Origin: Gemmataceae bacterium
GTDB lineage: Bacteria > Planctomycetota > Planctomycetia > Gemmatales > Gemmataceae
Assembly (NCBI GenBank): GCA_003136315.1
Contig: PLDW01000195.1
Location: 1 to 49,514 of the forward strand
DNA length: 49,514 nt
Reading direction: 5' to 3'
Below the pieces are notes generated by a model, which ran no database searches, was not told the origin of the DNA, and saw nothing but the letters and a program-made list of their open reading frames with translations. Positions 19,767-45,241 of the stretch are shown piece by piece (position 1 is the stretch's first letter; each line of letters opens with the position of its first letter). The position numbers and the translations under genes were made by a program.

Positions 19767-21374
19767 GTGGTAGAGATCGCGGGAGTGGCCGTGAACCCGT
19801 CACACGCTGGATCTCAATGGGGTTGGGTCGGGGAGCGAACCGTGTGGGAAACGTTCTCCCGCTCGGACCTTCGAACGATCCAGGCAGCTTACCCGGAGGC
19901 CCCTACCCAAGGGCTGACTCGCGATCTCGATCCCGGTGCGACCTATACCCCCCCACCGCCTCTCGCCCGGCCGTTCCCGTCCTGGGTCGTGGTGTCGCGA
20001 TCGTCCACAGGGTGGGTCCGATACGCCCTTCCGCTGCCAATCCGGGAACCGTTTGAACTCTTCAGCCTGAGTAAGCTCGTTGAGAAATTACATGCCGAAC
20101 GGGCGGCAGATCGGTTGACCAAGACCAGCCAGGCACTAGACGATCTGGACCAGATCGCATACGCCCTAATCGATTGGGTCGCCGGATTGCACCGTGCCGA
20201 GCAGTCTGCCGGGTTGCTGACCCCAGAGGGGGTGTTTTGGTATCGTGAGCCGACCCCGGATGGGGCTGAGCGACTAACGCTTGTCCCGGTTGACTGGGGT
20301 TTCGAGTGTTCTCGGGCTGGTGCGAAGCCAATCTGGTTCTCGCGGGAGGCACGCGGCCAGCCATACTGGAATGCGGACCCAGCGAAAATGTGCGAGTTAC
20401 CGGTTGACCGTCAGCGAGACTGGCGAACGCTGGCGCGCGTGTTTGACTGGGTGATGACACGGGTTCCAGGAGGGCTCCTATCGACCTCGGATTGTCACCC
20501 AAGGCTGGACAAGGATACACGACATCCAGCATTCGGCATTTTAGAGCGAGTGTTCCGCGAGAAGGCGACGAAACCGGCAGACCTGAAAGACGGTTTATCG
20601 AGCGTTGGCTCTAGACTAAGTGAGTTTTTTCTAGTGCCCCCGCCGCCGCCCCCGCCCGCCCCGCCGGTGTGGAGGCGACCGCGGTATCAGATCGCCGCCG
20701 TGGCAGCAATCTTGGCGGTCGCAGCCTGCGTATACCTTTTCGTGCCGCCCCCGCCGCCCCCGCCCCCGTATTGTGCAGACTGCCCAAAGGATTCTCCCCT
20801 GTATCGGTTACTGTTCGAGTTCGAGGCGGCTGTGAAGGCGAAGGACGGGGGGAAGAAGTTGCGAGTGTATGAGGAGATGGCTGCGGCCCAACAGACAAGC
20901 ACCGGCAGCCGGGCTGGGATCGAACAGGAGTGCCTGGGCAAACTCCTCCCGGAAGTTCTCCCGCCGACTGGGTGCCCACAAGGGTCCGCTCTCGCTCGGC
21001 CGCTCGGTAAGTTATCCGAAGCCTTGAAACGTGAGGAGAAAACCGAGTTCACCGACCTCGACCGGCTGGATCAGATTGTTGGATTGCTCGACGAGGTGCG
21101 TGCCGCAGCCCGGAGCCCGGCCGCGGAGGTCTCCGCCCGGGAGACTGAACTTTACCGGGCCGGCTGCCGTGCGACCTCGGCGGTGTTCCACAAGACGGGC
21201 GGGGGTAGCCGCTTTAAGGAATACTGCCAGAGCCAAAGTTTAGACTTTGAGAGGGTGGCGCAGCCGGCATTCCGCCGGTTCGCCAGGTTGTGGACCCGAT
21301 TCCAGTCACTCTGTCCCCAGGATATGGAGGAGGCTCGGCCGTGGGATCAAGAAACCGAAGATTGGTCGAAGTAG
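19767..21374 (+). CDS. Membrane-anchored degenerate kinase-like protein
   Basis: A 535-residue protein from GTG with AGGGGGA ten bases upstream. Residues about 120-240 follow a kinase C-lobe: IDWVAGLHRAEQSAGLLTPEGVFWY in the catalytic-loop position, VPVDWGFE in the DFG position, and DWRTLARVFDWVMT like helix F. The catalytic Asp and the metal-binding Asn appear replaced (GLLTPEG), and no Gly-rich loop is seen, so it is probably a pseudokinase. A single TM (about 310-330) is flanked by runs of proline, and a ~200-residue extracytoplasmic Cys-containing domain follows. It opens the operon and may be its membrane sensor. Confidence 0.5.
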   Translation: MVEIAGVAVNPSHAGSQWGWVGERTVWETFSRSDLRTIQAAYPEAPTQGLTRDLDPGATYTPPPPLARPFPSWVVVSRSSTGWVRYALPLPIREPFELFSLSKLVEKLHAERAADRLTKTSQALDDLDQIAYALIDWVAGLHRAEQSAGLLTPEGVFWYREPTPDGAERLTLVPVDWGFECSRAGAKPIWFSREARGQPYWNADPAKMCELPVDRQRDWRTLARVFDWVMTRVPGGLLSTSDCHPRLDKDTRHPAFGILERVFREKATKPADLKDGLSSVGSRLSEFFLVPPPPPPPAPPVWRRPRYQIAAVAAILAVAACVYLFVPPPPPPPPYCADCPKDSPLYRLLFEFEAAVKAKDGGKKLRVYEEMAAAQQTSTGSRAGIEQECLGKLLPEVLPPTGCPQGSALARPLGKLSEALKREEKTEFTDLDRLDQIVGLLDEVRAAARSPAAEVSARETELYRAGCRATSAVFHKTGGGSRFKEYCQSQSLDFERVAQPAFRRFARLWTRFQSLCPQDMEEARPWDQETEDWSK

Positions 21375-22672
21375 CCCTCGGGGTCGTCGCCGTGCTGGGA
21401 ACGGCCGCCCTCGTCCGTTCAGGTATTTCCGACGCCCCAGTGGTGAAAGCCGCCCCGGCTCCGGGAGCAAAGGACGACAAGCCTGCCTTGGTCCTGGCGC
21501 TGCGGACAGCCCGTGCGACGAACAAACGGGACATTGAGGATAGCTTCAAGGTTTTACAAAAGCAGATAGAGGCCAACAATCGAACATCTGATAAACTGAA
21601 GATTGAAATGTCTTGGGCGAGTGTGGAGGTATTTCGCTCGAACAAACCCGGATACGAATCGGTTCGGACGATGATCGAGGGCCGTGGGGTTCCGGTCGCC
21701 TCAGCAGGAGACGGGGGCGGGAAGCCCACACTCATTTTCCGTGACGATTCGACCCGGCCGATGTTCCAAGTGGTATCCGGGAACCCGTCCGACAACATCA
21801 TGGCGTTGACGATCACTTTCAAAGGCGAGAAGAGTGTGGAGTTCTCCCCGTCGGCCCCGGACGGCCCGTTCGTGTACAACAAGACCAAGGACAAATATTA
21901 CTTTGACCCTGAAGTGGCAAAGTTCCCGTTGGGCGCAGAGCCGATCTCGTTCGTGCTGAAGGTCCGGCGTGGGGGAAAAGAGATTAACCTCCCATCGGCC
22001 GACTGGCCCCAAGAACAATTCGATTACTGGATTATTCGCGTCAGCGATTGGAAGGGAAACATCGCCGAACTCATCCGCCTTTTCAAGAACGACACCGACG
22101 ACCGGAACGGGTTGGTCAACCCGTACGACCTCTCCGGGTCAACGTTCACGACGTTTGGGGTTGGAACGGCCCTCCTGGACATCCCCCCGCTCGGAAACGA
22201 GGGGTTTGATGGGAATGTGTTCCGGTTCGCGGTTACTCTGGGCACGGCCCAGAAGAAGACGACCAAGGTTTGGATGCGATTCCCACTTACCAAAGCGGAC
22301 GCCGAGAAGCAGGCGGAGGATCTCGGTGGGTTGGGTTTCTTGGATTTGATCAAGCACATCGAGATGAGCAACGGGATGGTGTCCTCGGACACCCCCCTGG
22401 CACTGACAGACCCGAAGATGTCCGCGGTGTGGATCGAACTGACAAAGGGCACGGGCGAGTATTCCCGGACGTGCGCTGTTCCAAAGCCAGACGATTGGAA
22501 GAAAGACTTCAAGGGACCGGTCTACAGGCTGGTCGTCTTTCAGGGTGGGGAATCGGCGATCCAGTTTCCAGTCGCTGGGAAGGCAACGAAGGTGAAGGTC
22601 GAGCTGATCGACAAGTGGTCGTTCTTCACTCCAGAGGGCGGTCAACCGAAACCCCCAGCCCTGGGGAAGTAA
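21341..22672 (+). CDS. Anchored extracytoplasmic protein, unknown fold
   Basis: Starting at GTG 21341 gives 443 residues; GGAGGAGG lies just upstream, better than the more distal GTG at 21290. A basic start (GSRNRRL) and one TM (about 12-28) are followed by a large soluble domain with many beta-strand-like stretches (ALTITFKGEKSVEFSP, YRLVVFQGGESAIQFP). It overlaps the preceding gene by 34 bases. No family is recognised; a surface or periplasmic structural role is possible. Confidence 0.5.
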   Translation: MGSRNRRLVEVALGVVAVLGTAALVRSGISDAPVVKAAPAPGAKDDKPALVLALRTARATNKRDIEDSFKVLQKQIEANNRTSDKLKIEMSWASVEVFRSNKPGYESVRTMIEGRGVPVASAGDGGGKPTLIFRDDSTRPMFQVVSGNPSDNIMALTITFKGEKSVEFSPSAPDGPFVYNKTKDKYYFDPEVAKFPLGAEPISFVLKVRRGGKEINLPSADWPQEQFDYWIIRVSDWKGNIAELIRLFKNDTDDRNGLVNPYDLSGSTFTTFGVGTALLDIPPLGNEGFDGNVFRFAVTLGTAQKKTTKVWMRFPLTKADAEKQAEDLGGLGFLDLIKHIEMSNGMVSSDTPLALTDPKMSAVWIELTKGTGEYSRTCAVPKPDDWKKDFKGPVYRLVVFQGGESAIQFPVAGKATKVKVELIDKWSFFTPEGGQPKPPALGK

Positions 22673-22690
22673 CCCACACCCGGTGACACT

Positions 22691-22740: not shown

Positions 22741-24894
22741 ATGCCCCTCACCCCCGCCGAGTGCCCCCTCAGCTCGCCCCCGACGGTCGCCTTGTATAAC
22801 CGGCTTGAGGCGGCAGTCGGGAAAGTCCGCGATCAGCTTCCGAAACTGTGGGCCACGGTCGAACAGAACCCGGGTCCGGCTGGCCGGTCAGCCTTGCCCG
22901 CCCGCACCGCCGCGCTCGCCGATGTCCTCCGACGGACGCGGTACAGGGTCGGATTTCTCGGTCGCAGCCAAGTCGGCAAATCGACCACATTCAACAATGT
23001 CCTGGGGGTAAGGAAAGAAGAGAGTCCGTCCAAGGAGGGTCGCGGGGAGCCGACTACCAGCGCCGTCACCCGACTGTTTCGGGTTTCCCCTGGGCAGCCG
23101 CCGTCCTGCCACCTGTTGTTCATGACCCAAGTCCAGTTCCAGGAACGGCGGGTCGATTTGTGCAAGAGTAACGGGATTCCTGAGATCCCGGTCGATGTGG
23201 CCAAGGACCATCGGGTGCTGTCCCAAGAAAATGACGCGCTTTTTGCCCAGATCGAGGCCCTCCGTACTGGCGCCCCGGACACGGCCGACCTCACCCTCAA
23301 ACACCGCCGCCGATACTTCGCCCGGCTGCTCAAGAGTTTCCGCCAGTTCGGAGAGCGGTTCGTCAGGCCCACTCCGGTCCGGGTGCCTGGGGAATACGCC
23401 CGGCGGGGCGAGTACGCAAACCACCCGGACGGTGAGGCAGCGAGCGAGTACCTGCTGCTCCGGGAGGTGGAGATCGGGTTCCCAACTGACCGGATCGACG
23501 ACAAACTTGAGATGATCGATCTACCTGGGCTCGGGGCTCAGACGGTCGAGGATGACTCGCTCACCTTGGCATACCTCCCTACTCTGGACGGCGGGTTGGT
23601 GTTCCAAAGTACCGAACAGGTTGCTTCGATCGAGGTGGTTCGGCTGTTGAGTGAGTTCCGCAAGGCGTTCCGCTCCGACCTGAAGGATCGTGTTTGGATG
23701 GTGATCACAAAGTTCGACGGGCTTAGCCAAACCACCTTGTACGGGGATGAAGCCAGCCCGGCCACGGTCTTCGACAGCTTGGACCGGACACTTCGGGACA
23801 GTGGGCTACCGCACGGGCAGGTGCTATTCGTCGGGAACGAGTATTACAAGACGTTCACAGCCGCCCAGGCCGCCCACCCTGGCCCGCTCCCACCTGACCG
23901 GATTCAGGATCTGCTCAAACTCCGGCCCGGGGAGGACGGCCGGCCGGAGATTCCGCCCGTACTTGAGAGGTATGAGGGGCTGAAAGCGGCATACCTTCAT
24001 GTGATCGCCGATGGCGGAGTGCCCCGCATTCGCGATGTGATCGGACAGACCCTGGCCGGGGCGGTTCAAGCGAAGGTTCAGGAGGACGCCCGGCGAGAGA
24101 TCCAAGATGTGGCTACTGGTTTGGCCCAGCGGGTATCCGCCGGGCGGGATCAATCGGCCATGAATCTGGACCAGATTGAGGCGGCGGCCAAGTGGGAGGC
24201 GGCGGTCGAGCGAGCTGCGGCCGCCGCGACTGCCTCCCGACTGACCGAGGCCCCGCTCCGCCGGCTCGGTCAACAACTGCGCAGTTTGTTCGCCAACCTC
24301 TCTGGCGTGGCAACCAGCCAGTCGCCGGACGAATTGGTTCGCAAACATAACGAGCGACTCGCCCCACTCCTTCGGACGAAAGCCGTTGCGGACGCCAAAG
24401 CCGAGGCTCTCCCAGCCGTTGTGGAAGTAGTCTGCAAATTCTTAGAAGACGAAGGACAACGTGAGGTCGGTGTCAGTGGCTTGCGGGAGTGGCTCCCGGC
24501 CCTGGTGTTGCCTGACGCCGGGGCTCCGGCTGAAGCCCTCCGAAAAGCCCTTGACCAGGACATCGTGCGGGCCGCCGACTGGCTCACGCCGGTGTTCGAT
24601 TCGTTCGACAAAAGCAAGTTGTTTACTGCGGTCCCGAAGCTCCAGCCAGCCGACCCTGGGTTCGCCCCAAAGCTATCGGCCGACGAGTACAAACGAATCA
24701 TGCTTGGGAAGCTCGACACGATGGTCGGAGAAGCAGCACATGCGATAGCCGAGCGGGTTCGGGCTCGGTTCGATGACCTTCGTCAGCAACTCGGTTGGCT
24801 CGGGAACGTCGGGTCGAACGATGCCCCGGGGGACACTGCGTTATACGACACCCTGATCAGGGAACTCGAGGGGATTGCCCATGACGCCGGGTAA
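22741..24894 (+). CDS. Dynamin-like GTPase
   Basis: A 717-residue GTPase. G1 is GRSQVGKS (74-81), a G2 Thr lies in EPTTSAV (about 105), G3 is DLPGLG (about 260-265) and G4 is TKFD (about 322-325). The long insert between G2 and G3 and the helical, Ala-rich second half (about 430-717) resemble bacterial dynamin-like proteins, which remodel membranes. No hydrophobic paddle is obvious. The stop overlaps the Hsp70-like start, so the two are probably translated together. SrfC of enterobacteria is a GTPase encoded with an Hsp70-like SrfB, which may be a distant parallel. Confidence 0.75.
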   Translation: MPLTPAECPLSSPPTVALYNRLEAAVGKVRDQLPKLWATVEQNPGPAGRSALPARTAALADVLRRTRYRVGFLGRSQVGKSTTFNNVLGVRKEESPSKEGRGEPTTSAVTRLFRVSPGQPPSCHLLFMTQVQFQERRVDLCKSNGIPEIPVDVAKDHRVLSQENDALFAQIEALRTGAPDTADLTLKHRRRYFARLLKSFRQFGERFVRPTPVRVPGEYARRGEYANHPDGEAASEYLLLREVEIGFPTDRIDDKLEMIDLPGLGAQTVEDDSLTLAYLPTLDGGLVFQSTEQVASIEVVRLLSEFRKAFRSDLKDRVWMVITKFDGLSQTTLYGDEASPATVFDSLDRTLRDSGLPHGQVLFVGNEYYKTFTAAQAAHPGPLPPDRIQDLLKLRPGEDGRPEIPPVLERYEGLKAAYLHVIADGGVPRIRDVIGQTLAGAVQAKVQEDARREIQDVATGLAQRVSAGRDQSAMNLDQIEAAAKWEAAVERAAAAATASRLTEAPLRRLGQQLRSLFANLSGVATSQSPDELVRKHNERLAPLLRTKAVADAKAEALPAVVEVVCKFLEDEGQREVGVSGLREWLPALVLPDAGAPAEALRKALDQDIVRAADWLTPVFDSFDKSKLFTAVPKLQPADPGFAPKLSADEYKRIMLGKLDTMVGEAAHAIAERVRARFDDLRQQLGWLGNVGSNDAPGDTALYDTLIRELEGIAHDAG

Positions 24895-27475
24895 CCCGAC
24901 GGACGTGATGGTCAAGGTCAAGGATCTCTGGCAGTTGACCGGACTTCGGCCTCACCCAGCCGAGAAACGGCTGCTGTCCGAGTGGACGGGGATACCGTCT
25001 GATCGGGCACCTGAACGATATTTGGTGCTTGTGGAGTGGGATGCCAGGCTGACGTACCTGCAAGTGGCCGTCTCCGCCTCGGGGGTGACGACCGATGTTG
25101 GCCGCCCTGGCAACTCGACCCCATTCAGTTCAGACCCGAGTGCCGCGGTCGCCCTGTTTACTCGGTATGGGTGGCCCGAAAATCGGATGCCCGAGTCAGT
25201 CCGGGCATCCGACCTGGACCAGCCAACAATGCGATTCCTGATCGCCGAAGTTCCAACCACCGGACGGTCGGCTCGTGGCCCGACCACAGAGACTGCGCTG
25301 GCCCTCATATTGACAGTTGACACCGATGACCAAGAGTTCCGGAGATACGGTAACTGGAAGACTCCTCTGGGTGGGGCAGCCTTCGACCCAGCCCCGATCC
25401 TGACAATCACCTCCTACTTCCCGCAGAATTCGACTGGTCGGCCAGTCAAGACCGAGGGTCACAGGAGGGTTCTCCTCCAACTCTCCCCCGCCACGATGAT
25501 GGAGGAATACACGGGATACTTGGCTCTGGACCTCGGTAACACGAACTCCGGGCTTGCGTTCATGGCCCCTGGGGATCCAGATGCGGAGAAGGTGATGATG
25601 GTCGGGGGGGCCGGTGTAACCCCGACGGCGGTCCGAATTCGCTCGGTGGGGGTAGTTCCGCCCCCAGTCAAGCCCGCTCCTGGCAAACCGGCCGGCGGCC
25701 CCTTGATCCCCACCGCCGAATACGAAATTGGGTACGATGCGATGGTCGGGGGCAGCGGTACCTTGGTCCTTGGAGCAAAGCGGTTGCTGGCTGCCCCGGA
25801 CACGGCCCCCGATCCGGGCTACACGGTTTCGGTCGGTAGCCGGGAGCAAGCCATCCCCCGACAACTCCCAGCAGAACTGTTTATCACCGGGATGCTCCGG
25901 AAGTTCCACGCGGAAAAGCAAAAACGGATCACGCGGCTGGCCGTCACCTGCCCAACGACGTTTACCGATCGTGAGATCGCACAACTCACCGAAGTCGTCT
26001 TCCGGGCGGCGATCCGTGCAATGAGGTTTGACAAATACCCGCCCCCGGCGATCGCCCAGAAATTGAAGGACAGTATAATCCCACTGGTGATCGACGAGGC
26101 ATCGGCGGCAGCGTTTTTCTTCCTCTACCGGGATTTCATCCGAGCCGTTGGGGGTACTCGTGGTGTCAGGTATATGTATCCGAAGGGGGTAAACCTGCTG
26201 CTGTATGATTGCGGGGGAGGGACGACAGATTTAGCTCTCGTTCACTTGCGCCCCGCGTCCAAAGAGGATCTTGACAAAGCTGAACGGGGTGGGGACACCG
26301 CAGCCTTCACCCACCTCCACATTGACGTACTCGGACGGACAGGGATGCGGGGGTTTGGCGGGGATAACATCACGCAAGCTACTTTCCGCCTGATCAAGGC
26401 AAAACTCGCGGCCGGCAGTGGTGACCCGCCAGCGCCACGGGTGCCCGACGACCCGGCCTTGTTGAAGTCGTTCCTGGATGATCCCGATACGCAAGAGCGG
26501 ATTGATGCGGTCATCCCCACCCGATTCCGAGATCCGAATAATCCGACTCGCAAGCGACCAGAATTGAGACGGGATCAGATCGAAGGCCGCGAGGCCAATC
26601 ACCTGGAGCTATGGCAGTGGGCCGAGGCTGTGAAGATCGCCTTATCCGTCCCTGGGACGAGTGAAACGACGGTCGCCCCCGTCCAGGAGCAGGAGGGGAG
26701 ACAATCCCTCTTGCACGTTCTCGCCACGGCGTGGGGTTCCGACCACGACGATGCTTTCGTGCGGGCGGCCAGCGTAAAAATTCGGCGAGACGAACTCGAC
26801 GAATTGGTCCGCGACTCCGTCAAAGAAAGTGTCGATAAGGCCAACCGCCTGATCACTGATCGGCTCAAGGGAGGGGAAATCCACAGGGTGTATGTGGTAG
26901 GGAACGCGGCCCGTTATCCGCTGATCCGGGAGATGATTGAGCAGGATCTCCAGGCCCGATTTCTGACGCCGGGCGAGGGGATCGACCACCGGTTGGTACT
27001 CGATTCCGGTAACTTGAAGCACGCCGTTGCCAAGGGTGCCGTCATCGCCCTCCGGTTGCTCGGTGAAATGGAAGGGTTTGATGTCTCGTACGACCGCGAG
27101 TTGATCCGTCGCCTTCCGCACCACATCGGCTACCTGAACATGAGCCGGGAGGTCAAGCCGCAACCGGTCTACCGAGAACACGAGCGGTATCAGGATCTCA
27201 AGCCGATACCGATCCCGGTCCCGAAGGCGATCCCCGGGCAGAAGCGAATCGGGGCGGGGTTTGCCTTGTCCCGTCAGTGGCCCGGCGAGGATACCTGGGA
27301 GCGATACATCCGCTTCCAGTTCGACCAACCGGTCGATGGCCCGCTGCAACTCAAACACGAGCCGAACCCGCCGCGGTTTGTCCTACGGGACGAAGGAAAA
27401 TCGAAGCAGGAGGCCGTCGGGGTGGAGGAAGCCCTCGCCGAGTACGTTTCCCCGGCCCAACAGGGCTTATACTAA
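24881..27475 (+). CDS. Hsp70/actin-fold ATPase (SrfB-like)
   Basis: An 864-residue protein from ATG 24881, with GAGGGG upstream; the two codons before it are part of a TTG frame. An N-terminal ~205-residue domain has no clear match. Then follow the actin-fold motifs: YLALDLGNTNSGLAF (phosphate 1, about 212-226), LLLYDCGGGTTDLALV (phosphate 2, about 439-454) and VYVVGNAARYPLIREMI (adenosine motif, about 669-685). There is no peptide-binding domain like DnaK's; the C terminus (about 730-864) differs. It probably uses ATP to control a partner, and the neighbouring GTPase is the obvious candidate. Confidence 0.75.
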   Translation: MTPGNPTDVMVKVKDLWQLTGLRPHPAEKRLLSEWTGIPSDRAPERYLVLVEWDARLTYLQVAVSASGVTTDVGRPGNSTPFSSDPSAAVALFTRYGWPENRMPESVRASDLDQPTMRFLIAEVPTTGRSARGPTTETALALILTVDTDDQEFRRYGNWKTPLGGAAFDPAPILTITSYFPQNSTGRPVKTEGHRRVLLQLSPATMMEEYTGYLALDLGNTNSGLAFMAPGDPDAEKVMMVGGAGVTPTAVRIRSVGVVPPPVKPAPGKPAGGPLIPTAEYEIGYDAMVGGSGTLVLGAKRLLAAPDTAPDPGYTVSVGSREQAIPRQLPAELFITGMLRKFHAEKQKRITRLAVTCPTTFTDREIAQLTEVVFRAAIRAMRFDKYPPPAIAQKLKDSIIPLVIDEASAAAFFFLYRDFIRAVGGTRGVRYMYPKGVNLLLYDCGGGTTDLALVHLRPASKEDLDKAERGGDTAAFTHLHIDVLGRTGMRGFGGDNITQATFRLIKAKLAAGSGDPPAPRVPDDPALLKSFLDDPDTQERIDAVIPTRFRDPNNPTRKRPELRRDQIEGREANHLELWQWAEAVKIALSVPGTSETTVAPVQEQEGRQSLLHVLATAWGSDHDDAFVRAASVKIRRDELDELVRDSVKESVDKANRLITDRLKGGEIHRVYVVGNAARYPLIREMIEQDLQARFLTPGEGIDHRLVLDSGNLKHAVAKGAVIALRLLGEMEGFDVSYDRELIRRLPHHIGYLNMSREVKPQPVYREHERYQDLKPIPIPVPKAIPGQKRIGAGFALSRQWPGEDTWERYIRFQFDQPVDGPLQLKHEPNPPRFVLRDEGKSKQEAVGVEEALAEYVSPAQQGLY

Positions 27476-27490
27476 CCGCTTGAGGGTGGG

Positions 27491-30400
27491 ATGCGTGTGG
27501 ACCAGGCAGACCTGGACAGCCTCCGGGCAGCAGTTCACGAGGCGGTCACCCAGTGGCAACTGCTGCTCGGGTTTGAGCGTTACGCCCGCGGCTGTCCTGG
27601 GCCGGACGGAACGGGGGCAGTCGCAGTCGCGGCCAAGACCGCAGCCGCCCGCGGGCCGTTGCTCCCCGGAGGAGGGCCAGAGGGGCTTGATCGCCCACTC
27701 TCTCCTCCTGTCGATGCCCGCTTTCGGGATCTTCTCGTGGGGGCATTCACGTCAGGGCAACCCAGTTCCCCCAACACGGACCCAGCCAAGGTCGTCAGCG
27801 CCTGCTACGACGCAGCACGCCAAAGTGGACAGCTCGAACTCCCGTCGGCAGTGTGGCCCTACCACGCCGACGACTGGTATCCAGTCGCGTGGGTCTGGGC
27901 CGCTGAAGCGCTTTATCAGTGGGCCACAGTCCCACCCCCCGCAGCTCCGGTCGATCTCGGATACGACCCTCAATTGGTGGGGGAGATCCATCGCTGGGTC
28001 GGAGCGAATAGCAGCGATAGACTCGCTCAGACACACACTGCTCAGGCCACGATCCTCCTCCGCCGTGCGGCGGAGGCGCTCACCCCTCGGTCGATCCCCA
28101 CCCCCGACGCCGCCTGGAGAGCGGCTGACTGGTATCGGCTCATGCAACTCGTTGTTGGGCTCCCCCCCTCGTGGCCACCAGTCCAGATCGCCGCGTTTCG
28201 GCGGGAGTGGGGGAGACTCGCCCCGAACCACCTGGACCCGTTCAGCCCCGAACGGTGGGCTCGCGGGGATGGACAGCGAGACTTCCAACAATGGCTGAAG
28301 AAGTCCAGGGAGAACGCTCGATTGCGGCTAATCGACCGGCTCCTGGCTATCCTGGACGATTTGGATGCGGGTAGCCAACTCCCGACTGAAGTCTGGAAAG
28401 AGGTCAAGGCGTTCGCCGTCAGAGTCAGTCCTCTCGGCTATGGCCAACCCCGGTTAGTGCGTGATCCGACGGCCGCTGAATCCGCCGAGTGCAAGAAGGT
28501 GGAGTGGGCTGGAGAGGTCGACACCCTCAAGTCGTCCGGGTGGGTGTTGGAGCGAAGTCAGTCAATCCAGGTCATCCGTCCGGCGGTCATTCAGGAATCC
28601 CGGCCACCGCCAGATGTGGTCGAGCTAGTCAAAAAACTCGCCCGGGCAGTCGAAAAGCAGGATCCCCGATTGGCTAAAGACTGTCACGCCATCGCGGTCA
28701 CCACAAAGACTGTGGACTGGGCAGAACGGCTTACCGCGGCGACCGCCGTCGAGTGGTGGCGTGTGCTCCAACGGGGGCTTGGCTGGGCGGTGGAAGACCC
28801 CAGCCTGAAGGCGGATGTCGTGAAGCTGGTCGAAGCCTGCCAAAAGGTTGGGCTAACGCTAGTCGATCTTGAGCCACCTGGACCCGGCCAACCCTCTGAG
28901 GTTGCTGGATGGATCGCGTACCCGGTCTCGTCGGCTGACGGCCCGACGCCGCTTCCCCTCCCACGCGGGGCGAACAATTACGGGGTTGGGCTACGGTATC
29001 CGGGGAGTGACACGATTTTACTGCCTGATGGCTGGCTGAGGATCAGCCAAAATCGTCTCAACGCAAGTCCTCTGTTTCGTTGGCGGGAGGCCGCCGAAAT
29101 GAAGCTGAACGAACTTAGGGATCAGGTCAAGGAATGGCACGGGTGGGCGAAGATCGACTCCATCGTCCTGGATGCCGCTTACACCCGCTCCGAGGTCGAT
29201 CCGACGCTAGCGGTCGAACTGTTCACGTCTCTGTGCGACCAGATCAATGAGACCGGGATTGGGGAGCTGTTCCGCGCGCTTGCAAGGATGCTCTACGACC
29301 AGCTCAAAACCGATAAAGCAACCCGGATCCGCCCGGCACTGAACGACCGACTCAAGCCAGAGTCCCTGACGGCCGAACCCGAACCGGATGTGGAGGTTCA
29401 GTGGAAGACATCGACCGAGAAGCCTGGCGAGAAGCCTGGCGAGATCTTGCGAGTCCTGCGGTATGGCATCGGGAAACGGCCCCCGAAACTCGAATTGTTG
29501 GCCGGCCCGACGGGGGACAAAGTCGCGGACTTACTCACCCTCGAACCCTGTCCGATCCCGACGCCCGAACTCGATAAGTTGGTCAAGGCCGTTCGGAATG
29601 TCGTTTGGGCGAAGGGGAGCCGCGACAAAGCGTTGAGAGCAGCCTTTGCGGACTTTGACTCGTTTCTGCTCAGTGATCGCGCGTGGGGCTGGCTGACTCG
29701 GTTGGCCAGGACCGTCACGGCGGGGACCGACACGCCCGAGCGAGCCACCGCTCGGGCGTGGTGGAAAGTATTGTTCGGGGCCGAGAGGGTCGAGGTCGTC
29801 CAGGTTTACCCCGTCATCAACCAGGACACATGGGAAGTGACCTGGCCGGCAGACGTGCCCTGGGGATCCGAGGTTGAGTGGAAGCCGGACGCAGCCGTGA
29901 TCGGGCATCCGGTCGGGCAAGTCGGCCGATTCGCGACTGTTTCCGAAGGAGCACGGGGCGATTTCAGCCTCGGCCCCCTGATCAACCGCGGCCCTGTGTA
30001 TCGCTACAACGGCGTTGCTGAGGCTGCAAAACCGTTCGGGAGCGAACTGAAAGCACCACTCGCAGATCTGTGGGCTGCAACGGTGGGGTTCGTCCTGACA
30101 GGCCGTGCTCCCACTGATAAAACCCTTGTAAAAGATCTGCTCGACCGGGCAGCGGCGGACATTGCTAAGGGCGAGGACGACAGGACTACGGCCGCCACCC
30201 GCCTGGCTCTCGCGGTCGGAAAATGGCTCGCTGCCGTCTCGTTGCGGCTACTCCCAACAATTTGGGATCCGAACCGCCCGTCTGTGATCAGCAAACTGGA
30301 ACACAGGGAGCTCGAGGTCGGCCCAATCGTCTATAACCATGCCAAGCCAGGCGAGTGGATCCTCAACCGGTTTGGGATCGGGAGCGGGAAATCAGACCAA

Positions 30401-30847: not shown

Positions 30848-30850
30848 GTG

Positions 30851-38159: not shown

Positions 38160-38227
38160 GCCTCAGGCTGGTCAGATTCAATTGCCCGACCAACCGACTG
38201 GAATGCACCGAACACCCGAGGTAAGGC

Positions 38228-41032
38228 ATGTTCCGCTTCCACTGGACAGCCACCATCATGGCCTTGGTTCTGATGGCTGCCCCGACCTCGGCTCAGCCAA
38301 GGCCAGCGAAGCAGTACAAACGTGGCGACCCGCTCGAACTCCGCGGGGAGAAGAATTTCCAGAGGCCGATCGTGGTCCGGGTGGCCGCCGCCCGCTTCGT
38401 CCCGCGGGAAGAGCCGAGCCTGCAAGCCGCGGCATACCCGGGGGCTACTGGGTTTGAGTTCCTGGCCGAAGCGTACTTGGCGGCCACTGAGCAGGACACC
38501 GGGTTCAGCTTCCTTGCCCTAACCGGAGACCGGAAGACCATCAAGGAGCCGCTTGGGTGGGTGCCAACGGGCCTGCTCGTGTTTGCAGACGAGGCTCGTA
38601 AACTCCCAGGGGGGAATGTCCATGAAAAGGCGGTGATCGTCAACACTGTAGACTCGATCCAAGAAGACCGGACATTCCTGACCTTGCCCAAAGAGTTCGC
38701 CGCTGACTTTGACGTTTCCGTGGTCAGCGACCAAATCAAAAAGGCGTTTCAGGACAAGAAGAACCTGGAACTGTCGGACAAAGCCAAGATCCAGGTTAGC
38801 CCGTTCGATGCCACGGTTCGCTTGATCATGGACGATGCCCCGGGCCGGTTCTATCGGTTCGAGGTGCGGCCCAACCCCGCGGGTGAGATGGTTGTCATGG
38901 ATAGCTACGGGATGGCAGCGGTCGACGACAACCCGTTCCCCAGAGACGGGGCGAAGGATGGGCTCCCGCCACCTGTCCGGCGGAGTGCGGTACGGCTAGC
39001 AAACACGTTCTACGTGTACGCTGTCTATCCTTCTGCCGACAAGCCGACTCATTATCTCCTGGGCCTCAGCTCCAATATCAAGGTGGGCGAGGCCCCAGAG
39101 GTTGTGATCAAAGGGTGGGTGCCCCACACCCGAATTCGCCCGTGGAACACCGGGGAGGCGCTTCGTTGGGCCAACATGCCCCCCGATCGGGAACCTGGGG
39201 TGGTTCTCGCCAGCAGGGAAGGGGCCGATAACTGGTGGAAGGACAAGGAGAAGAAGAAGTTAGTGAAGCAGGTCGTGACCGAGACGCCAGGAATCAAGTG
39301 GGCACCGTACACAGCCCGGATGCTGGTGCTTAGCGGGCATGAGCCAAAGGTTATGGCCCTGGGTCAGGATCCGGTCCCGATGTTGTTCGAGGTGGCGGTC
39401 CCAGGGGTTCTCAACACCCAGACAGGGACGATCAAGTCTGGCGGCGTGGATGTTGCGGCAATCAAGGCCAAACTGAGTGCCCTGTACGAAGGGTCAAAAA
39501 AACTCGACATCGTGTTTGTGATCGATGACAGTCAGAGGATGGAGAGCTACTTCAAGCCGGTCGGAGACATTGTCGAGGAGGTGCTCAAGGATGCGTTGAT
39601 TAACCGTGAGACCGTGACCCCGTCAAAACCGGGGACGGTCACCCGCCTCCGAGTGGGTATCACTTTCTACAGCGACTACGAGGCCGGGAAGCCGGTGATC
39701 CGCCTGGCCCCCACCCCCGATGGGCAACCTGGGCCAAAGATGTGGGAGATCTTCAATAGCCAAACCTCCGCCGTACAGGCCGCCAATAACCTCCGACGCC
39801 TGGTCGGCGACATTAAGGGGCACCAGTTCCGCCCGGGCGGTGACGACCCGGACCAACTCTTTCAGGGGATCTACGATGCAGTCGATGAAGTACAGGATGA
39901 GTTGGCCCAAGCTCCCCTGGCGCGGCGGGTGATGATCCTCATCGGAGACATGGCGAGCCACCCACTCCGGTTGGGCAAGAAGGAGCTGACCGACACAGAG
40001 GCGATCACTGCGATGGTGAAGAAACTCAACCCGAACCCGCCAGGGAAGGCGATCCCGGGGGAGAACGGCGAGAACCCCTTCGAGTTCTACGCCGTCCGGG
40101 TGGAAGGCAACGACAGCAACCCGAAGGCCCGGCGGCTGGACGCGATCCGGATGCGAACCCAGATGCTCGACCTGTGCGACGCTCTGAACGCTCGCTACCA
40201 GGAATGGAACCCCAACCCTGAGAAGCCGAGTGTGGTCGCCCGGTTCTTCCCGGACGGTGGGCGGGACAAGCCAGAGGCCCAACTCCCGTTGATCCAGGTC
40301 GAGGAATTGACCAAGGCCCTCCGGGCCAGGTTCCTCCAAATCCGGGCGGACCAGGAACGACTCATCGGGGGGGTCAGTGCTCTCCAGGCGGGAGAATGGC
40401 CTGCCAGTCCCTATCAGCTCGATCCTCGGGTGGTCAGTGCTCTTCGGGCGGCGGGCCTGGACCCACAGCAATTAGCCAAGACCGATGCGTTTGAAATCTA
40501 CCTGACAGGATATGTGTGGCGATACATGCGAGGAGGGGGCGAACAGAAGCAGGTGCAGACCGAATTTTTTCTCGCCGAAGGAGAATTAGATCAACTTATC
40601 TATTCTCTCGATGCGTTCGTTGGAGCGACCCGGGATGTCCTGGAGAATCCAACACGCTTTCAGACATTATATACAGAGCAACTTAAGGCACTTGCTCGGG
40701 AGGATCGTTCCTTCGTTTCATTTGCAGATGCGTTTAAATCAAAATTTGGTATTATTACTCGCACTAATTTTTTGCAGAAAACCCGCACTGATTTGACGGA
40801 AGGTCTAAAAGCAGATGGTTTGGAGATCGCAGAGCTGCGACAGAAGGTGGAGCGGCTGAAGGACACCCGGGCGGGTTACGATCGCCCAATCAAGATCGAG
40901 AAGGTGGGCGAGAGATACAGGCTCACGATCCCCGAGTTGGACGACAAGTACCGACTCAAGGAGCCAAATTATTTCACCCAGCCGGGTTCGTCTGTGAAGT
41001 ACTACTGGATTCCCATTGATGAGTTGCCATGA
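38228..41032 (+). CDS. Secreted vWA-domain protein, paralog 2 (damaged MIDAS)
   Basis: A 934-residue paralog of the preceding protein along its whole length, with a similar signal peptide (ending SAQP). The MIDAS position reads DDSQRMES: D433 and S435 are kept, but the last Ser is Arg (R437, codon at 39536-39538), so metal binding is probably lost or altered. It also lacks about six residues near the vWA end (ENDVQS in paralog 1). Long stretches, for example 40060-40365, are almost identical in DNA to paralog 1, which suggests gene conversion. Its stop overlaps the third paralog by four bases. Confidence 0.7.
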   Translation: MFRFHWTATIMALVLMAAPTSAQPRPAKQYKRGDPLELRGEKNFQRPIVVRVAAARFVPREEPSLQAAAYPGATGFEFLAEAYLAATEQDTGFSFLALTGDRKTIKEPLGWVPTGLLVFADEARKLPGGNVHEKAVIVNTVDSIQEDRTFLTLPKEFAADFDVSVVSDQIKKAFQDKKNLELSDKAKIQVSPFDATVRLIMDDAPGRFYRFEVRPNPAGEMVVMDSYGMAAVDDNPFPRDGAKDGLPPPVRRSAVRLANTFYVYAVYPSADKPTHYLLGLSSNIKVGEAPEVVIKGWVPHTRIRPWNTGEALRWANMPPDREPGVVLASREGADNWWKDKEKKKLVKQVVTETPGIKWAPYTARMLVLSGHEPKVMALGQDPVPMLFEVAVPGVLNTQTGTIKSGGVDVAAIKAKLSALYEGSKKLDIVFVIDDSQRMESYFKPVGDIVEEVLKDALINRETVTPSKPGTVTRLRVGITFYSDYEAGKPVIRLAPTPDGQPGPKMWEIFNSQTSAVQAANNLRRLVGDIKGHQFRPGGDDPDQLFQGIYDAVDEVQDELAQAPLARRVMILIGDMASHPLRLGKKELTDTEAITAMVKKLNPNPPGKAIPGENGENPFEFYAVRVEGNDSNPKARRLDAIRMRTQMLDLCDALNARYQEWNPNPEKPSVVARFFPDGGRDKPEAQLPLIQVEELTKALRARFLQIRADQERLIGGVSALQAGEWPASPYQLDPRVVSALRAAGLDPQQLAKTDAFEIYLTGYVWRYMRGGGEQKQVQTEFFLAEGELDQLIYSLDAFVGATRDVLENPTRFQTLYTEQLKALAREDRSFVSFADAFKSKFGIITRTNFLQKTRTDLTEGLKADGLEIAELRQKVERLKDTRAGYDRPIKIEKVGERYRLTIPELDDKYRLKEPNYFTQPGSSVKYYWIPIDELP

Positions 41033-42852
41033 GCCACGCATGGGACGAACTCGCTCACCCAACCTCCACGATTGGTATGCTACCGCAGCATCACCCAGAT
41101 CGGCCCGGAAAGCTGAGACAAGCTGTAATCCGTGCGTTCTGTACGACGCTCGGTAGCTTGGTCTCCGTGGCTTCGTGGATCTCCGCACAACCGCTTCCAC
41201 CTCAGCCGTACAAGAGCGGCGGCCCGCTTGAACTCCGCGGACCGAACAAGAAGCCGGTCCTGGTTCGCGTGGCTGCCTCCCGATTCATCTCTCGCGCAGA
41301 GCCGAACCTGAAGGCTGCGGCGTACCCCCAACCAGCCTATTTCCAGGAATTCTTGGCTGAGGCGTATCTGGCGGGAGATGACAAGGCGACTGGGTTCAGC
41401 TTCCTCGCCACGAGTGACGACAAAAAAACAATCAAGGCCCTGCTTGGGTGGGTGCCGACGGACCTATTGGTATTCGGAGATGAGGCTCACAAATTGCCTA
41501 ACAGTGATCTCTACGAGAAGGCCGTGATCGTCAACACCGAGGACTCGATCCACGAGGACCGGACATTCCTCACCCTCCCCAAAGAGTGTGAGGTCGATTT
41601 CAACAGCCGCAACATGAGCGACCGCATCCGCAAAAAATTTCAGGACAAGAAGAGCCTGGGATTATCGAACAAGGCCAGGATTGAGGTCAGCGAGTTCGAC
41701 CCCAAGACTTGGCTCATCGTGGATGAAGCCCCAGACCACTTTTATCAGTTCGAGGTCCGGGCCAATGTCGCGGGCGAGTTGGACGTAGTGGACAGTTATG
41801 AGATGGCCGCGGTGGATGACAACCCTTTCCAGAACGCGGCAAAGGACGGGCTTCCACCGCCGACACGTCGAAGTGGGCTCCGGCTGGCAAACACCTACTA
41901 TGTGTACGGCTCTTATCCCGCCACGTGCCCCTCGCATTATCTTCTCGGCGTAGGCCCGAATATTAAAGCAACGGAAGACCCGGACAATGTCATTAAGGGT
42001 TGGGTTCGGGCGAACCGAGTGAGATTGTGGAACACTCGCATGGGCCTTCGCTGGACCGACATGCCACAGCAGCAACAGCGAGAACCTGGGAAAGTGCTTG
42101 CCAGCCCTGAGGGTGCCGGTAACTGGTTGAAAGGAAAGCCAGCGAAAGAAATCGCGAGCGAGCCACCAAATTTTCACTGGAAACCATCCGACAAGCGAAT
42201 GTTGCTTACCGGAAGGGCCGAACCTGCCACCCCACTGCACCAAATCTTGTTCGAGGTGGCTGCCCCCTGCGTAACTCGCGTGCCTCCCAAGAATGAGCCA
42301 GTCTCGGTACATTCGATTGGATATGTCTGGCACCATGCCCGGGGAGCAGCAGTTGGTACGGCTCAGGTCAAGCGAGAACTGTTTCTTTCGGAATATGATC
42401 TGCGATTATTAATCGACACAATCAAAGCTTACATCGATGCCCCGCGGGACACACTGGAGAATGCAGATATTCTCCGTGAGTATTACCCTAAAATAATTAA
42501 AGATTATTTTGAGAAGACTCCGCCATTCCAATCGCTCAAAGAAGCATTCTATGCGCGATTCGGTTACACTTCCCAGGCCAAGCTGCTCGATATCAGGGCG
42601 GGAATGATAAGCAAGGGGATCTGGTCTGGAGATCAAGAAGCGGTTGAACTTAAAAAGAAATTAGAGCGATTGATTGACATAATCGAAGGCTACGATCGCC
42701 CGAGCTTCATCAAGACGGATAAGACGGGCTTGAATTACCAACTCGACATTCCCCCGAGAGAGGACAAGTACCGGCGCAAGGAGGACAACTACTTCATCCA
42801 ACCGGGATCGCCGATGAAGTACTACTGGGTTCCGATCGAGGAGTTGCCGTGA
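41029..42852 (+). CDS. Secreted paralog 3, vWA domain deleted
   Basis: A 607-residue relative of the two preceding proteins. It keeps the SH3-like N-terminal half and the helical C-terminal part (YVWHHARG, FLSEYDLRLLIDTIKAYIDA, KKLERLIDIIEGYDRP), but the ~345 residues that hold the vWA domain are missing and the flanks join near PCVTRVPPKNEPVSVHSIGY. About 30 extra residues precede the likely signal peptide (VIRAFCTTLGSLVSVASWISAQP). It overlaps the ABC ATPase gene by four bases (GTGA). It may compete with or cap the vWA-containing paralogs. Confidence 0.65.
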   Translation: MSHAWDELAHPTSTIGMLPQHHPDRPGKLRQAVIRAFCTTLGSLVSVASWISAQPLPPQPYKSGGPLELRGPNKKPVLVRVAASRFISRAEPNLKAAAYPQPAYFQEFLAEAYLAGDDKATGFSFLATSDDKKTIKALLGWVPTDLLVFGDEAHKLPNSDLYEKAVIVNTEDSIHEDRTFLTLPKECEVDFNSRNMSDRIRKKFQDKKSLGLSNKARIEVSEFDPKTWLIVDEAPDHFYQFEVRANVAGELDVVDSYEMAAVDDNPFQNAAKDGLPPPTRRSGLRLANTYYVYGSYPATCPSHYLLGVGPNIKATEDPDNVIKGWVRANRVRLWNTRMGLRWTDMPQQQQREPGKVLASPEGAGNWLKGKPAKEIASEPPNFHWKPSDKRMLLTGRAEPATPLHQILFEVAAPCVTRVPPKNEPVSVHSIGYVWHHARGAAVGTAQVKRELFLSEYDLRLLIDTIKAYIDAPRDTLENADILREYYPKIIKDYFEKTPPFQSLKEAFYARFGYTSQAKLLDIRAGMISKGIWSGDQEAVELKKKLERLIDIIEGYDRPSFIKTDKTGLNYQLDIPPREDKYRRKEDNYFIQPGSPMKYYWVPIEELP

Positions 42853-43715
42853 GCTTCGAGCTCCACGAAGTCGGGTTCCGGCATCGCACCGCCAGACCCG
42901 GTGACAGAGATGCCCTGGCCGGTGTGACCGCTGCATTCCCAGCCGGGGCGGTGTCGGCCGTTCTGGGGATCTCCGGGTCTGGTAAGACCACCCTCCTGAA
43001 CTTGCTCGGTCGGCTCTGGGACGGACCACCAACCACTGGCCGGATCACCTACACCGGACGTAACGGCGGCGACTACGCCGACCTCACGCCGTCCGCCGCT
43101 GGCCGGCTCCGACGGGAGCACTTCGGGTTCGTCCTCCAGTCCGCGTTCCTCATCGGTCACCTGACGTGCGCTGAGAACATCGGGGTTCCGCTCGTCCTCA
43201 ATCGCGTCCGCGATGCCGATTTCCGCATCCGCGGCCTGCTCATGCGCGCCGAGATGGAGCACCTCGCCAGCCGCCCTGCTCGTCGGATGTCCGGGGGGGA
43301 GCGGCAGCGGGCCGCCGTACTCCGGGCCGTTGTCCACGATCCGGACATCCTGTTCGCGGACGAGCCGTTCAGCAACCTCGACCCGCACAGCACCGACCGC
43401 GTCATCGATCTGTTCCGGGCGTGGCAGGCAGGCGACCTGTCCCCTCAGAAGAACGCCCACCCGCGCACACTCATCCTGGTGACTCACGACCTCCCCACCG
43501 CTTGGGGGCTTGTCGTGCCCCCTGACCACCTACGACACTCGACCTGGCGATCGGGTGGGTTCTTGCTTCTCCGCGCGGGGCTCCCGGTCCGGGTCGGCAC
43601 GGCAGACACATCCGACGCTCTCATTCCACCTGAGGCCATCCCTGGCGGCCACGCCGAGCTCCGCCGATTGATCATGCCCTCCCCGAACCAGTCTCCCGCC
43701 GAAGGCCGCCCATGA
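42849..43715 (+). CDS. ABC ATPase (LolD/MacB-like)
   Basis: A 288-residue ATPase from GTG. Walker A is ISGSGKTT, the signature is MSGGERQRAAVLRA, Walker B is LFADEPFSNLD and the switch His is in LVTHDLP. It is most like ATPases that work with FtsX-type permeases, and the next gene is one. The extended C terminus (about 225-288) has an SGGFLLLRAGLP stretch beyond the usual end. It probably drives a mechanical step outside the membrane rather than classical transport. Confidence 0.8.
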   Translation: MSFELHEVGFRHRTARPGDRDALAGVTAAFPAGAVSAVLGISGSGKTTLLNLLGRLWDGPPTTGRITYTGRNGGDYADLTPSAAGRLRREHFGFVLQSAFLIGHLTCAENIGVPLVLNRVRDADFRIRGLLMRAEMEHLASRPARRMSGGERQRAAVLRAVVHDPDILFADEPFSNLDPHSTDRVIDLFRAWQAGDLSPQKNAHPRTLILVTHDLPTAWGLVVPPDHLRHSTWRSGGFLLLRAGLPVRVGTADTSDALIPPEAIPGGHAELRRLIMPSPNQSPAEGRP

Positions 43716-45241
43716 TGACCCGGTTCGTCCTTTTGTACGCCTGGCGAGATCTGACAGACCCGGCAACCTCCCGGAGCACCGTTGTCGCGTTCGCCACCCT
43801 GGCCGCCGCGATCGCCGCCACCCTCGGCGGGTTCGGGTTCACATTCGGGGTCGAGCAGGTCAGCCGCAGACGATTGGAGGTCGACCCGTTCGTTCGCACA
43901 CTCTGGACGGGCGGGTGGAGCAGTCGAGAAATGATCACCCCGAGTGTTCTCGCAAAGCTCCGGGAGACGACCCCGGCAGGAACCCGGGTGTACCCGTTCC
44001 ATAACATCCTGATCGAGTTCACCAGGAGTGACGGGACTGCCGAGGGATTCGTCGGGCGGACGATCAGCTTCGAGGAGGGGAAGGCAGACGATTTGTTTGC
44101 CAGCCGCCCGGTCCAGCCCGGCGGTCGGTTACTCCACGATCCCGCCGACGAGGGCATCGTCGCGACCCCTGGCTTATTGCGAAACCTCGGCTTCGATCCC
44201 GCCAGGCCGCCACTCCACCTGACCGGTTCTTACCGGCGGAATCAGCCACGCCGTATTCCCATCCTCGGCGTGACAGGGGAGAATCTTCCACAGCACCACC
44301 TGTTCGTCATTGGAGGCGAATACGTCCGAGAGTTGGGGAGCACGATCGGCTCGAAGGACGGGCTCCTCGCGGTGTCCACGACGGGCTTGCCGCCGGAGTG
44401 GGCCGAAGAATACCACTCCCGTATTCCCCCAAGAGTCCGCGACGCAGCCCGGATCATAGACTCTCGCATCGACATCCGCCCCGATGAATCGTTGGTAGAT
44501 GGAACTCTTTTCTGGCGTCTCCGATTACCTCCGACGGCCCTGGGGCAATCGGTCAGTTGGTGGCAGGACGTCGTCCAGGCGATGGACCATGAGTTGCAAC
44601 AGCTCCGCCCACTCACCAGTGCTCGGCTCACAGTGAACACCAGTGGTCTGCCGAAGACGTCGCCGGACCCGCAAACCAACCACGACATGGTCGCGGTGGT
44701 GGTTCCGAGCCTGGACGAGTTGGTTCCCGCGGCCGATGCCGTCGCAGGGATCGAGGCCCCGGGCGGGGCACTCCCGGTCAACCGGGACGCCGTCGAGAAA
44801 GTGGTTCGAGTCAACGAGCAGACACGGCTGATGGTCCAGGCGGTGACCGTGGTCGAACTGTTCCTGGTCTTGATCGTTGGGTGGAACCTGTTCGCCACCC
44901 AGGCCATGCGAGCTGACCGGCAGATCGCTGAAGTCGGAATGCTCAAGGCGATGGGGATGCCACGGCGGGTGGTGGTGGCGGCCTACCTGACCGAAGCGGT
45001 CATGCTCTGGCTCCCGGCTGCGGTCGCAGGGACTGCGGCCGGGATCCTGGCCGCGTACGGGGCAGCGTGGTGGCGGTATCACGGTGACCCGCAGGCAATC
45101 CGGGACGGCTTCTACTGGACCTGGCGGCTCCTGGGCCAGGTGCTCGGCTGTTCGGCTGGCCTGACGCTGGTGTGCGCTGGACTGGCGACCATTCGACCGG
45201 TCCTCGCGTCCCCGAGTGAGACGCTCAGGGACGGACGCTAA
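43712..45241 (+). CDS. FtsX-like permease
   Basis: A 509-residue protein with one N-terminal TM (about 22-45), a large extracytoplasmic domain (about 60-360) and three C-terminal TMs (about 373-390, 425-450 and 475-495). The cytoplasmic loop RADRQIAEVGMLKAMGMPRRVVV is the FtsX/LolCE hallmark. It overlaps the ATPase gene by four bases. With that ATPase it forms a type VII-like ABC system which may act on the secreted vWA proteins. It is the last gene of the tightly packed block. Confidence 0.8.
   Translation: MMTRFVLLYAWRDLTDPATSRSTVVAFATLAAAIAATLGGFGFTFGVEQVSRRRLEVDPFVRTLWTGGWSSREMITPSVLAKLRETTPAGTRVYPFHNILIEFTRSDGTAEGFVGRTISFEEGKADDLFASRPVQPGGRLLHDPADEGIVATPGLLRNLGFDPARPPLHLTGSYRRNQPRRIPILGVTGENLPQHHLFVIGGEYVRELGSTIGSKDGLLAVSTTGLPPEWAEEYHSRIPPRVRDAARIIDSRIDIRPDESLVDGTLFWRLRLPPTALGQSVSWWQDVVQAMDHELQQLRPLTSARLTVNTSGLPKTSPDPQTNHDMVAVVVPSLDELVPAADAVAGIEAPGGALPVNRDAVEKVVRVNEQTRLMVQAVTVVELFLVLIVGWNLFATQAMRADRQIAEVGMLKAMGMPRRVVVAAYLTEAVMLWLPAAVAGTAAGILAAYGAAWWRYHGDPQAIRDGFYWTWRLLGQVLGCSAGLTLVCAGLATIRPVLASPSETLRDGR

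Follow-up and report, generated by a model that had tools for sequence, protein, structure and literature searches.

Introduction

SrfC is a GTPase-like protein and PpkA carries a vWA domain. In host-associated Deltaproteobacteria, srfB and srfC lie beside ppkA and tagQ and mostly also beside a TagS/TagT ATP-binding cassette (ABC) pair; only one of these srfB/srfC-ppkA genomes has type VI secretion machinery (PMC3608642). GAP1-N2 conflict systems are reported from planctomycetes; they are assigned a membrane-proximal location, and their GTPases occur together with vWA, Hsp70, kinase or SH3 parts (PMC7159879). The bacterial dynamin DynA delays lysis after phage infection (PMC8844932), and planctomycete membranes are heavily invaginated (PMC8567305). 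Here we analyse a 13-gene operon (g1 to g13) at positions 19767-45241 of a 49,514-nucleotide contig from a Gemmataceae bacterium (PLDW01000195.1, assembly GCA_003136315.1; the whole stretch is hereafter the window), which encodes a transmembrane pseudokinase, a dynamin-like GTPase, an Hsp70-like ATPase, exported vWA proteins and an FtsX-type ABC pair. Since its gene order is kept in distant relatives, the operon looks like a real cell-envelope machine.

The operon resembles several described systems without coinciding with any of them. With SrfABC (PF07520, PF10139) it shares an SrfB-like Hsp70 adjoining a large partner protein, but its GTPase g3 was not recognised as SrfC, g5 did not match the gene before SrfB, the gene order is another one and there are extra genes. 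The likeness to the srfB/srfC-ppkA-tagQRST neighbourhood lies in the combination of SrfB, a kinase and an ABC pair, mostly without type VI machinery (PMC3608642); here, in contrast, the kinase is a pseudokinase, the vWA domains sit on separate exported proteins and no TagQ or TagR counterpart was identified. GAP1-N2 systems are likewise GTPase-centred, membrane-proximal and planctomycete, with vWA, Hsp70, kinase, SH3 and transmembrane parts, and they adjoin the operon in three genomes (G003, G005 and G015); the window operon, however, is without GAP1, its GTPase is dynamin-like and its Hsp70 SrfB-like, and the FtsX/ABC pair and the pseudokinase are absent from the themes described in the sections of PMC7159879 consulted. 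Bacterial dynamin-like proteins (SynDLP, DynA) have the same type of GTPase domain, whereas g3 belongs to a conserved operon that has an Hsp70 of its own. Finally, LolCDE/MacB/FtsEX-type ABC systems also consist of a LolD-type ATPase and a four-transmembrane FtsX permease with a large loop, but g12 and g13 fall under every cut-off among the NCBIfam matches listed, and their partner genes are unlike those of these systems. No published description of the operon was recognised among the papers listed in searches of open-licence literature on SrfABC, dynamin/Hsp70, GAP1-N2 and planctomycetes.

Results

The operon is conserved in Planctomycetota and exists in two forms

A preliminary description of the window had reported 13 genes on one strand, several of them overlapping and none more than 68 bases from the next, and the list of open reading frames (ORFs) confirmed this, coordinates included. 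The plus-strand ORFs of the block are separated by gaps of 68, 15, 0, 33, 28, 24 and 68 bases or overlap by 20, 4, 4 and 4 bases, in addition to the overlap between g1 and g2, where the g2 start is uncertain (about 21341-21362); 142 bases separate the block end from the next downstream gene. The first five genes form the core of the operon:

19767-21374, plus strand: g1, pseudokinase; one transmembrane segment (309-327), then an extracytoplasmic part
21341-22672, plus strand: g2, exported or anchored protein; N-terminal hydrophobic segment and about 400 amino acids rich in beta strands
22741-24894, plus strand: g3, dynamin-like GTPase; Dynamin_N family matches, PDB matches and conserved motifs
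24875-27475, plus strand: g4, Hsp70-like ATPase, distantly SrfB-like; PF00012 match and invariant ATPase motif columns
27491-30847, plus strand: g5, mostly helical protein, C-terminal region conserved; matched to no known family

The operon was found in 10 of the 59 genomes searched (its own genome counted), at 11 loci, and a scan of genome contigs added 8 further loci, some partial, in named records. The window Hsp70 used alone as query detected no relative in the whole-collection scan; the alignment used as query detected 13 loci, five of them apparently already in the set. Among the 59 genomes, 12 (own included) matched the window Hsp70 at E<=1e-3 and 13 matched the Hsp70 profile at E<=1e-8, nine of them strongly (E<=1e-179; the strong match in G005 is cut by a contig end) and four weakly (G010, G022, G036 and G038). 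Neighbourhoods were read for the 12 genomes matched by the window Hsp70 and for the 8 new loci, G022 and G036 being outside this reading; G009, G010 and G038 belong to the wider Hsp70 superfamily and were excluded from the counts. The g3 and g4 relatives are 22-32% identical to the window copies, yet the gene order is kept, which indicates more than a chance grouping. By homology and gene order, the block is a conserved accessory operon of Planctomycetota. Random variation of the neighbours between relatives, set beforehand as the result that would refute the operon, was looked for and not found, and the cytosolic, membrane and exported proteins are conserved as a set in distant loci.

The loci that show the order pseudokinase-g2-GTPase-Hsp70-g5 take one of two forms. 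The extended form continues through to FtsX in the window, in G015 (a locus that corresponds in place to Zavarzinella formosa NZ_JH636442), in G052, in G027 and on contig C223 of G000, the window's own genome, where this second copy is 31% identical in the Hsp70 and 28% in the GTPase. Within the limits of the available sequence, L042, L044, L041 and L038 are extended too; L038 starts within the upstream genes, and the 1.2 kb that follow its vWA gene contain no ABC gene. The two operon ends of G034 lie on two short contigs. Compact loci lie inside long contigs in G013 and G012, with no recognised envelope gene after g5; the G005 locus, split over two contigs, has no envelope genes after g5 either, and those of G003 and G025 stop at the contig end. 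No full-length vWA protein of the g9 family was found in these five compact genomes. L039, L040, L043 and L045 are too short for full classing. In complete loci, g6-g13 are either all present or all absent. The nine genes encoding no nucleoside triphosphatase (NTPase), earlier taken as one unit, divide: g2 and g5 go with the core, and g6-g13 come or go together.

The g2 profile matched 10 of the 59 genomes and nine of the same 10 had a strong Hsp70 match, the tenth (G034) being broken by contig ends at the Hsp70 position. A full vWA protein was present in 5 of the 10 g2 genomes and in none of the other 49; the vWA profile itself matched 14 of the 59 at E<=1e-8, nine of which match only the vWA domain (about 130-145 profile positions). 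Fisher P values over the 59 genomes, uncorrected for relatedness, were 8e-10 for g2 with Hsp70 and 5e-5 for g2 with vWA. Across 392 genomes of the phylum, g2 was detected in at least 2 (G000 and G052) and the broader Hsp70 superfamily in at least 28; these searches scored up to four or two candidates per genome, and the numbers are lower bounds.

The core pairs a dynamin-like GTPase with its own Hsp70

Analysis of the g3 family indicated a dynamin-type domain. PF00350 (Dynamin_N) matched 8 of 8 family members (best E 1.9e-9); the window protein scored 22.5 bits (E 1.3e-4), under the cut-off of 27. Searched against PDB, the family profile found SynDLP best (full-length chain, E 8e-10; shorter construct, E 1.7e-10), followed by mitofusins, and the G1 (P-loop), G3 (DxPG) and G4 aspartate residues are invariant among the 8 members. 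On this evidence g3 belongs to the dynamin-like GTPases, and its P-loop and switch motifs are intact. Window g4 matched PF00012 with 26.1 bits (cut-off 20.6), its phosphate and adenosine ATPase motif columns are invariant across 9 members, and its PDB matches are Hsp70, DnaK and Sse1. The ATPase domain is followed by what we take, by comparison with Hsp70, to be a beta-type substrate-binding domain; PDB alignments to Sse1 extend into this putative part. Of 23 stretches surrounding Hsp70 genes of the wider superfamily, 16 also contained a GTPase of the g3 family.

The other core genes are a transmembrane pseudokinase (g1), an exported protein (g2) and g5. The HRD aspartate of g1 is kept in 0 of 16 aligned rows and the following lysine in 3 of 16; a Pfam search with g1 gave no match. 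Neither g2 nor g5 had a meaningful match in the family libraries searched. Structures were predicted for these two of the 13 proteins, and both models are too weak to name a fold: g2 reached a predicted local distance difference test score (pLDDT) of 66 and a predicted template modelling score (pTM) of 0.39, g5 a pLDDT of 51 (about 60-84 in the C-terminal part) and a pTM of 0.32, and Foldseek returned no match at E<=0.001 for either model. The g5 of G027, missed by the g5 profile, was assigned by position alone. One locus (L124, G034:C82) carries two tandem g2-type genes 3' of the pseudokinase.

The envelope half encodes membrane proteins, exported paralogs and an ABC pair

The second half of the extended form consists of three proteins with membrane segments (multi-transmembrane g6, then g7 and g8), an SH3-like/vWA protein and a LolD/FtsX-type ABC pair:

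30848-31774, plus strand: g6, multi-transmembrane protein of about 300 amino acids with a polar tail; position and layout shared with extended loci
31808-33634, plus strand: g7, N-terminal hydrophobic stretch and large extracytoplasmic part; equivalence by position only
33663-35309, plus strand: g8, proline-rich start, one transmembrane segment (136-154) and a part read as coiled-coil-like; equivalence by position only
35334-38159, plus strand: g9, exported SH3-like/vWA protein with an intact metal ion-dependent adhesion site (MIDAS; DDSQS)
38228-41032, plus strand: g10, tandem copy of g9, 84% identical; exported vWA protein, last MIDAS serine changed to arginine
41029-42852, plus strand: g11, tandem paralog without vWA domain, N- and C-terminal parts retained
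42849-43715, plus strand: g12, LolD/MacB/FtsE-type ABC ATPase (PF00005, 81.2 bits)
43712-45241, plus strand: g13, FtsX-type permease (PF02687, 41 bits, cut-off 25.5)

Window g6, g7 and g8 showed no significant similarity to other loci in an all-against-all comparison, in which only the pairs G052_b/L044_b and L038_a/L039_a were significant. The hydrophobic stretch of g7 reads as a signal anchor and was not flagged by the hydropathy scan; the g7 counterpart in L044 has Calx-beta domains (E 2.7e-23). Beside the Zavarzinella operon, on the opposite strand, L027:12747-13799 encodes a four-transmembrane protein with a proline-rich tail and a g6-like layout. Three secreted vWA-family paralogs had been proposed for the window; g9 and g10 fit this, and g11 lacks the vWA domain entirely. 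The term SH3-like, applied to repeated GWVP modules, comes from reading the sequence and not from a family match. Ratios of nonsynonymous to synonymous substitution (Ka/Ks) of 0.14 (g9-g10), 0.23 (g9-g11) and 0.20 (g10-g11) fit purifying selection acting on each of the three. Within the vWA and C-terminal region of g9/g10, Ks was 0.22 and 0.28 in two blocks of 100 columns, against 0.40-2.15 in the other blocks, which suggests gene conversion in part of this region (35334-41032). A match of the vWA proteins to TssR (E 0.025) was set aside as a likely motif match. The best NCBIfam match of g12 was LolD (E 1.4e-35, under the LolD cut-off), and g13 has four transmembrane segments with a large loop between the first and the second.

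Compact loci fit a single loss of the envelope half

Compact loci formed one group in the Hsp70 tree (support 87/98) and in the GTPase tree (91/94), whereas the extended loci would need two changes; this fits a single loss of g6-g13, on trees whose root and several long branches, G027 most, are insecure. The window copy did not group with its genus mates G003 and G005 in either tree, which, together with the second copy in its genome, points to horizontal movement or old paralogy.

GAP1-N2 genes adjoin the operon in three genomes

GAP1-N2 genes lie next to the operon in 3 of the 10 carrier genomes. In G015, the operon is followed by one same-strand gene, one opposite-strand gene and then a GAP1-N2 gene (PF20013, 31.7 bits, cut-off 24), a zinc-ribbon GTPase and a MoxR-like ATPase, the last two named by sequence reading. 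Directly 5' of g1, G005 carries a GAP1-N2 gene together with a GTPase gene whose product shares 34% identity with the G015 GTPase; in G003 the same GTPase and the end of a GAP1 gene occupy this place. Under uniform placement, the probability of at least two such linkages is 1.1e-4 within 5 kb and 1.8e-3 within 20 kb; clustering in islands would raise it. In G000 (two copies), G013, G025, G027 and G052, GAP1-N2 genes are located elsewhere, in drafts on other contigs, and none was found at E<=0.01 in G012 and G034. The other loci in the pool had no match to these GAP1 or GTPase proteins. We also considered g5 as a GAP1 protein and g3 as a homologue of DO-GTPases or of the neighbouring zinc-ribbon GTPase; both were rejected (hhalign probabilities 0.1 and 0.4).

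Promoter candidate and flanking genes

The TTGACA-type promoter proposed earlier is represented by one site:

19714-19741, plus strand: candidate promoter TTGACA-N16-TAATGT, the sole window match to TTGACA-N15..19-TANNNT

The site ends 25 bases 5' of the g1 start codon. One match to the pattern was observed in the window against 0.54 expected by chance, and a generic promoter scan of the window did not list the site; a role as operon promoter is plausible. Terminator-like sites were no more frequent in the window than in shuffled sequence.

Upstream of the operon, a tyrosine integrase gene (17167-18393) lies just before a 3' fragment of tRNA-Met (18574-18614), whose 41 bases recur without a mismatch at G000:C174:45844-45884, the site of a predicted intact tRNA-Met. 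The fragment probably marks where an integrated element ends, the remaining genes of which extend leftward and, because it sits between integrase and operon, the operon is probably outside that element. Genes read as a VirD4/TraG-like coupling ATPase (10932-12398) and a GNAT-type acetyltransferase (14430-15074) would be consistent with a conjugative element to the left of the tRNA fragment.

Downstream, the gene at 45384-46571 encodes repeated VVA(V/I)AP(T/A)PRT units near the N-terminus; it was rejected as an operon member, having no counterpart in the loci read. The gene at 47093-49336 encodes a fusion of a protein kinase, a transmembrane segment and an FGE-sulfatase domain. This too was rejected: its kinase matches occurred only in wider-superfamily stretches and none beside the operon. 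In G161 (L147), too, a kinase-FGE fusion is found upstream of an SrfB-like Hsp70, from which two genes separate it. Beside the compact G013 locus, on the other strand, L023:6417-7742 encodes a patatin-like phospholipase resembling a PADLOC phospholipase effector (E 6.9e-16).

Discussion

We tentatively favour the view that the block encodes an accessory machine with several NTPases, which spans the envelope and serves in conflict or envelope stress. We infer this role from the patchy distribution, modular loss and strong divergence of the operon, its linkage to GAP1-N2 genes, the published GAP1-N2 systems and the anti-lysis role of DynA. A conflict function had been guessed in the preliminary description; the linkage in 3 of the 10 carriers lends it indirect support.

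The best-supported scheme is a cytosolic core of GTPase, Hsp70 and scaffold under a transmembrane pseudokinase, with an optional envelope half that would extend to the cell wall or further out and whose ABC pair could transmit a push through the membrane. Contact with the cell wall, the outer membrane or a partner would be made by the exported vWA, Calx-beta and g2 proteins, and the FtsX-type ABC pair and the pseudokinase would relay the signal through the inner membrane to g5. The GTPase, being dynamin-like, might then polymerise on the inner membrane and so seal, deform or sever it. Its dedicated Hsp70-like ATPase may load or disassemble the GTPase polymer, which would thereby be held back until triggered; these roles are suggested by the protein families concerned. 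In compact forms, the GTPase and Hsp70 probably respond to a different input, such as GAP1 with its GTPase. Taken further, a dynamin whose assembly and disassembly are run by its own Hsp70 and scaffold would be switched from outside through the pseudokinase, the exported vWA proteins and an ABC mechanotransmitter of the FtsX type. Planctomycetes would use it as a triggered device for membrane sealing or self-destruction, analogous to the eukaryotic dynamin/Hsc70 cycles of vesicle traffic; this bolder version is speculative and, in our estimate, rather doubtful.

Several observations weigh against a conflict or envelope-stress machine. The GAP1-N2 linkage was not seen in 7 of the 10 carriers, and the three cases amount to two independent events, since G003 is closely related to G005 (76-78% identity in this region). 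No GAP1-N2 gene or its GTPase was found in the window or its contig, and the GAP1-N2 search covered the 10 operon carriers alone. Ten of the 13 operon proteins (all except g10, g12 and g13), compared with PADLOC-DB 2.0.0 at E<=0.1, gave only a chance-level Cas6b match for g5 (E 0.062), and ten flanking proteins of other loci gave a single match, the phospholipase. No operon relatives were found in viral contigs or in plasmids. In 7 of the 23 wider-superfamily Hsp70 stretches, some of them short contigs, no GTPase was seen. The folds of g5 and g2 are too weakly modelled to be named, and a patchy operon could also serve an ecological envelope function.

The most probable alternative is an optional, housekeeping-like device for envelope remodelling, uptake or trafficking, in which dynamin and Hsp70 would drive invagination or scission and the envelope half would be a cargo receptor or anchor. 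It suits the kinship of g3 to SynDLP and mitofusins, the large exported and membrane half, the low Ka/Ks among g9-g11 and the heavily invaginated membranes of planctomycetes (PMC8567305). However, an operon present in 10 of 59 genomes, with g2 detected in at least 2 of 392, is not needed for the cell plan, and the strong divergence and the five compact genomes without a full-length vWA protein of the g9 family fit such a device poorly. We regard it as possible and on balance unlikely.

Less probable still is a transmembrane relay that resembles the threonine-phosphorylation pathway TagQRST-PpkA in its association with SrfABC and that might control a secretion system. The composition is similar (kinase, ABC pair, SrfB-like Hsp70 and GTPase partner; PMC3608642), but g1 is without the HRD aspartate, the vWA domains are on separate proteins and the conserved set holds no TagQ/TagR-type gene. 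TssC was detected in 4 of the 10 carrier genomes, which speaks against a fixed tie to type VI secretion, and not in G052, an extended locus in a one-contig genome. A TagS-named family was absent from the NCBIfam matches of three FtsX proteins and, for the ATPases, from the best 25 of 174-183 NCBIfam families.

It is very unlikely that the operon is a planctomycete SrfABC with extra genes. SrfB kinship itself is real: PF07520 matched 5 of 9 g4-family members (best E 3.2e-4) and a wider-superfamily Hsp70 at E 4.8e-6, and the Hsp70 profile picked up a true planctomycete SrfB in G402 (E 1e-12; hhalign probability 87). Among the 392 genomes, the SrfB model gave 16 matches in 10 genomes, one of them the true SrfB (G402, 7e-99), 11 at places of the Hsp70 profile (C223 included) and 4 elsewhere. 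Window g4, however, scored 9.2 bits (E 0.36) against a cut-off of 27.1, which it did not reach. PF10139 (SrfC) matched 1 of 8 g3-family members (E 0.017); the SrfC model found nothing at E<=0.01 in G000 and G052 (two candidates scored in each) and gave one clear match, in G402. The partial gene before SrfB in G402 did not match g5 (hhalign probability 0.2), and the GTPase precedes the Hsp70 in every locus read that holds both, which is not the SrfA-SrfB-SrfC order. On profile evidence, g4 is thus distantly related to SrfB, and the operon as a whole is not SrfABC. The resemblance to SrfB and SrfC noted earlier thus holds for the Hsp70, and not for the GTPase or the gene order.

A grouping of unrelated genes by chance or within an integrated element, suggested by the integrase and tRNA-Met fragment 1.2-2.6 kb upstream, can practically be dismissed, since gene order is conserved across Planctomycetota, the co-occurrence results contradict it, the tRNA fragment separates integrase and operon, and the integrase has no counterpart among the other loci read.

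The operon joins SrfB-type Hsp70s with large partner GTPases and the GTPase-centred GAP1-N2 systems, both of which are poorly understood. The related forms with and without the envelope half constitute a natural experiment, and Zavarzinella formosa, a named isolate, offers a place to study the role of a dynamin that has an Hsp70 of its own in a bacterium whose membranes are unusual.

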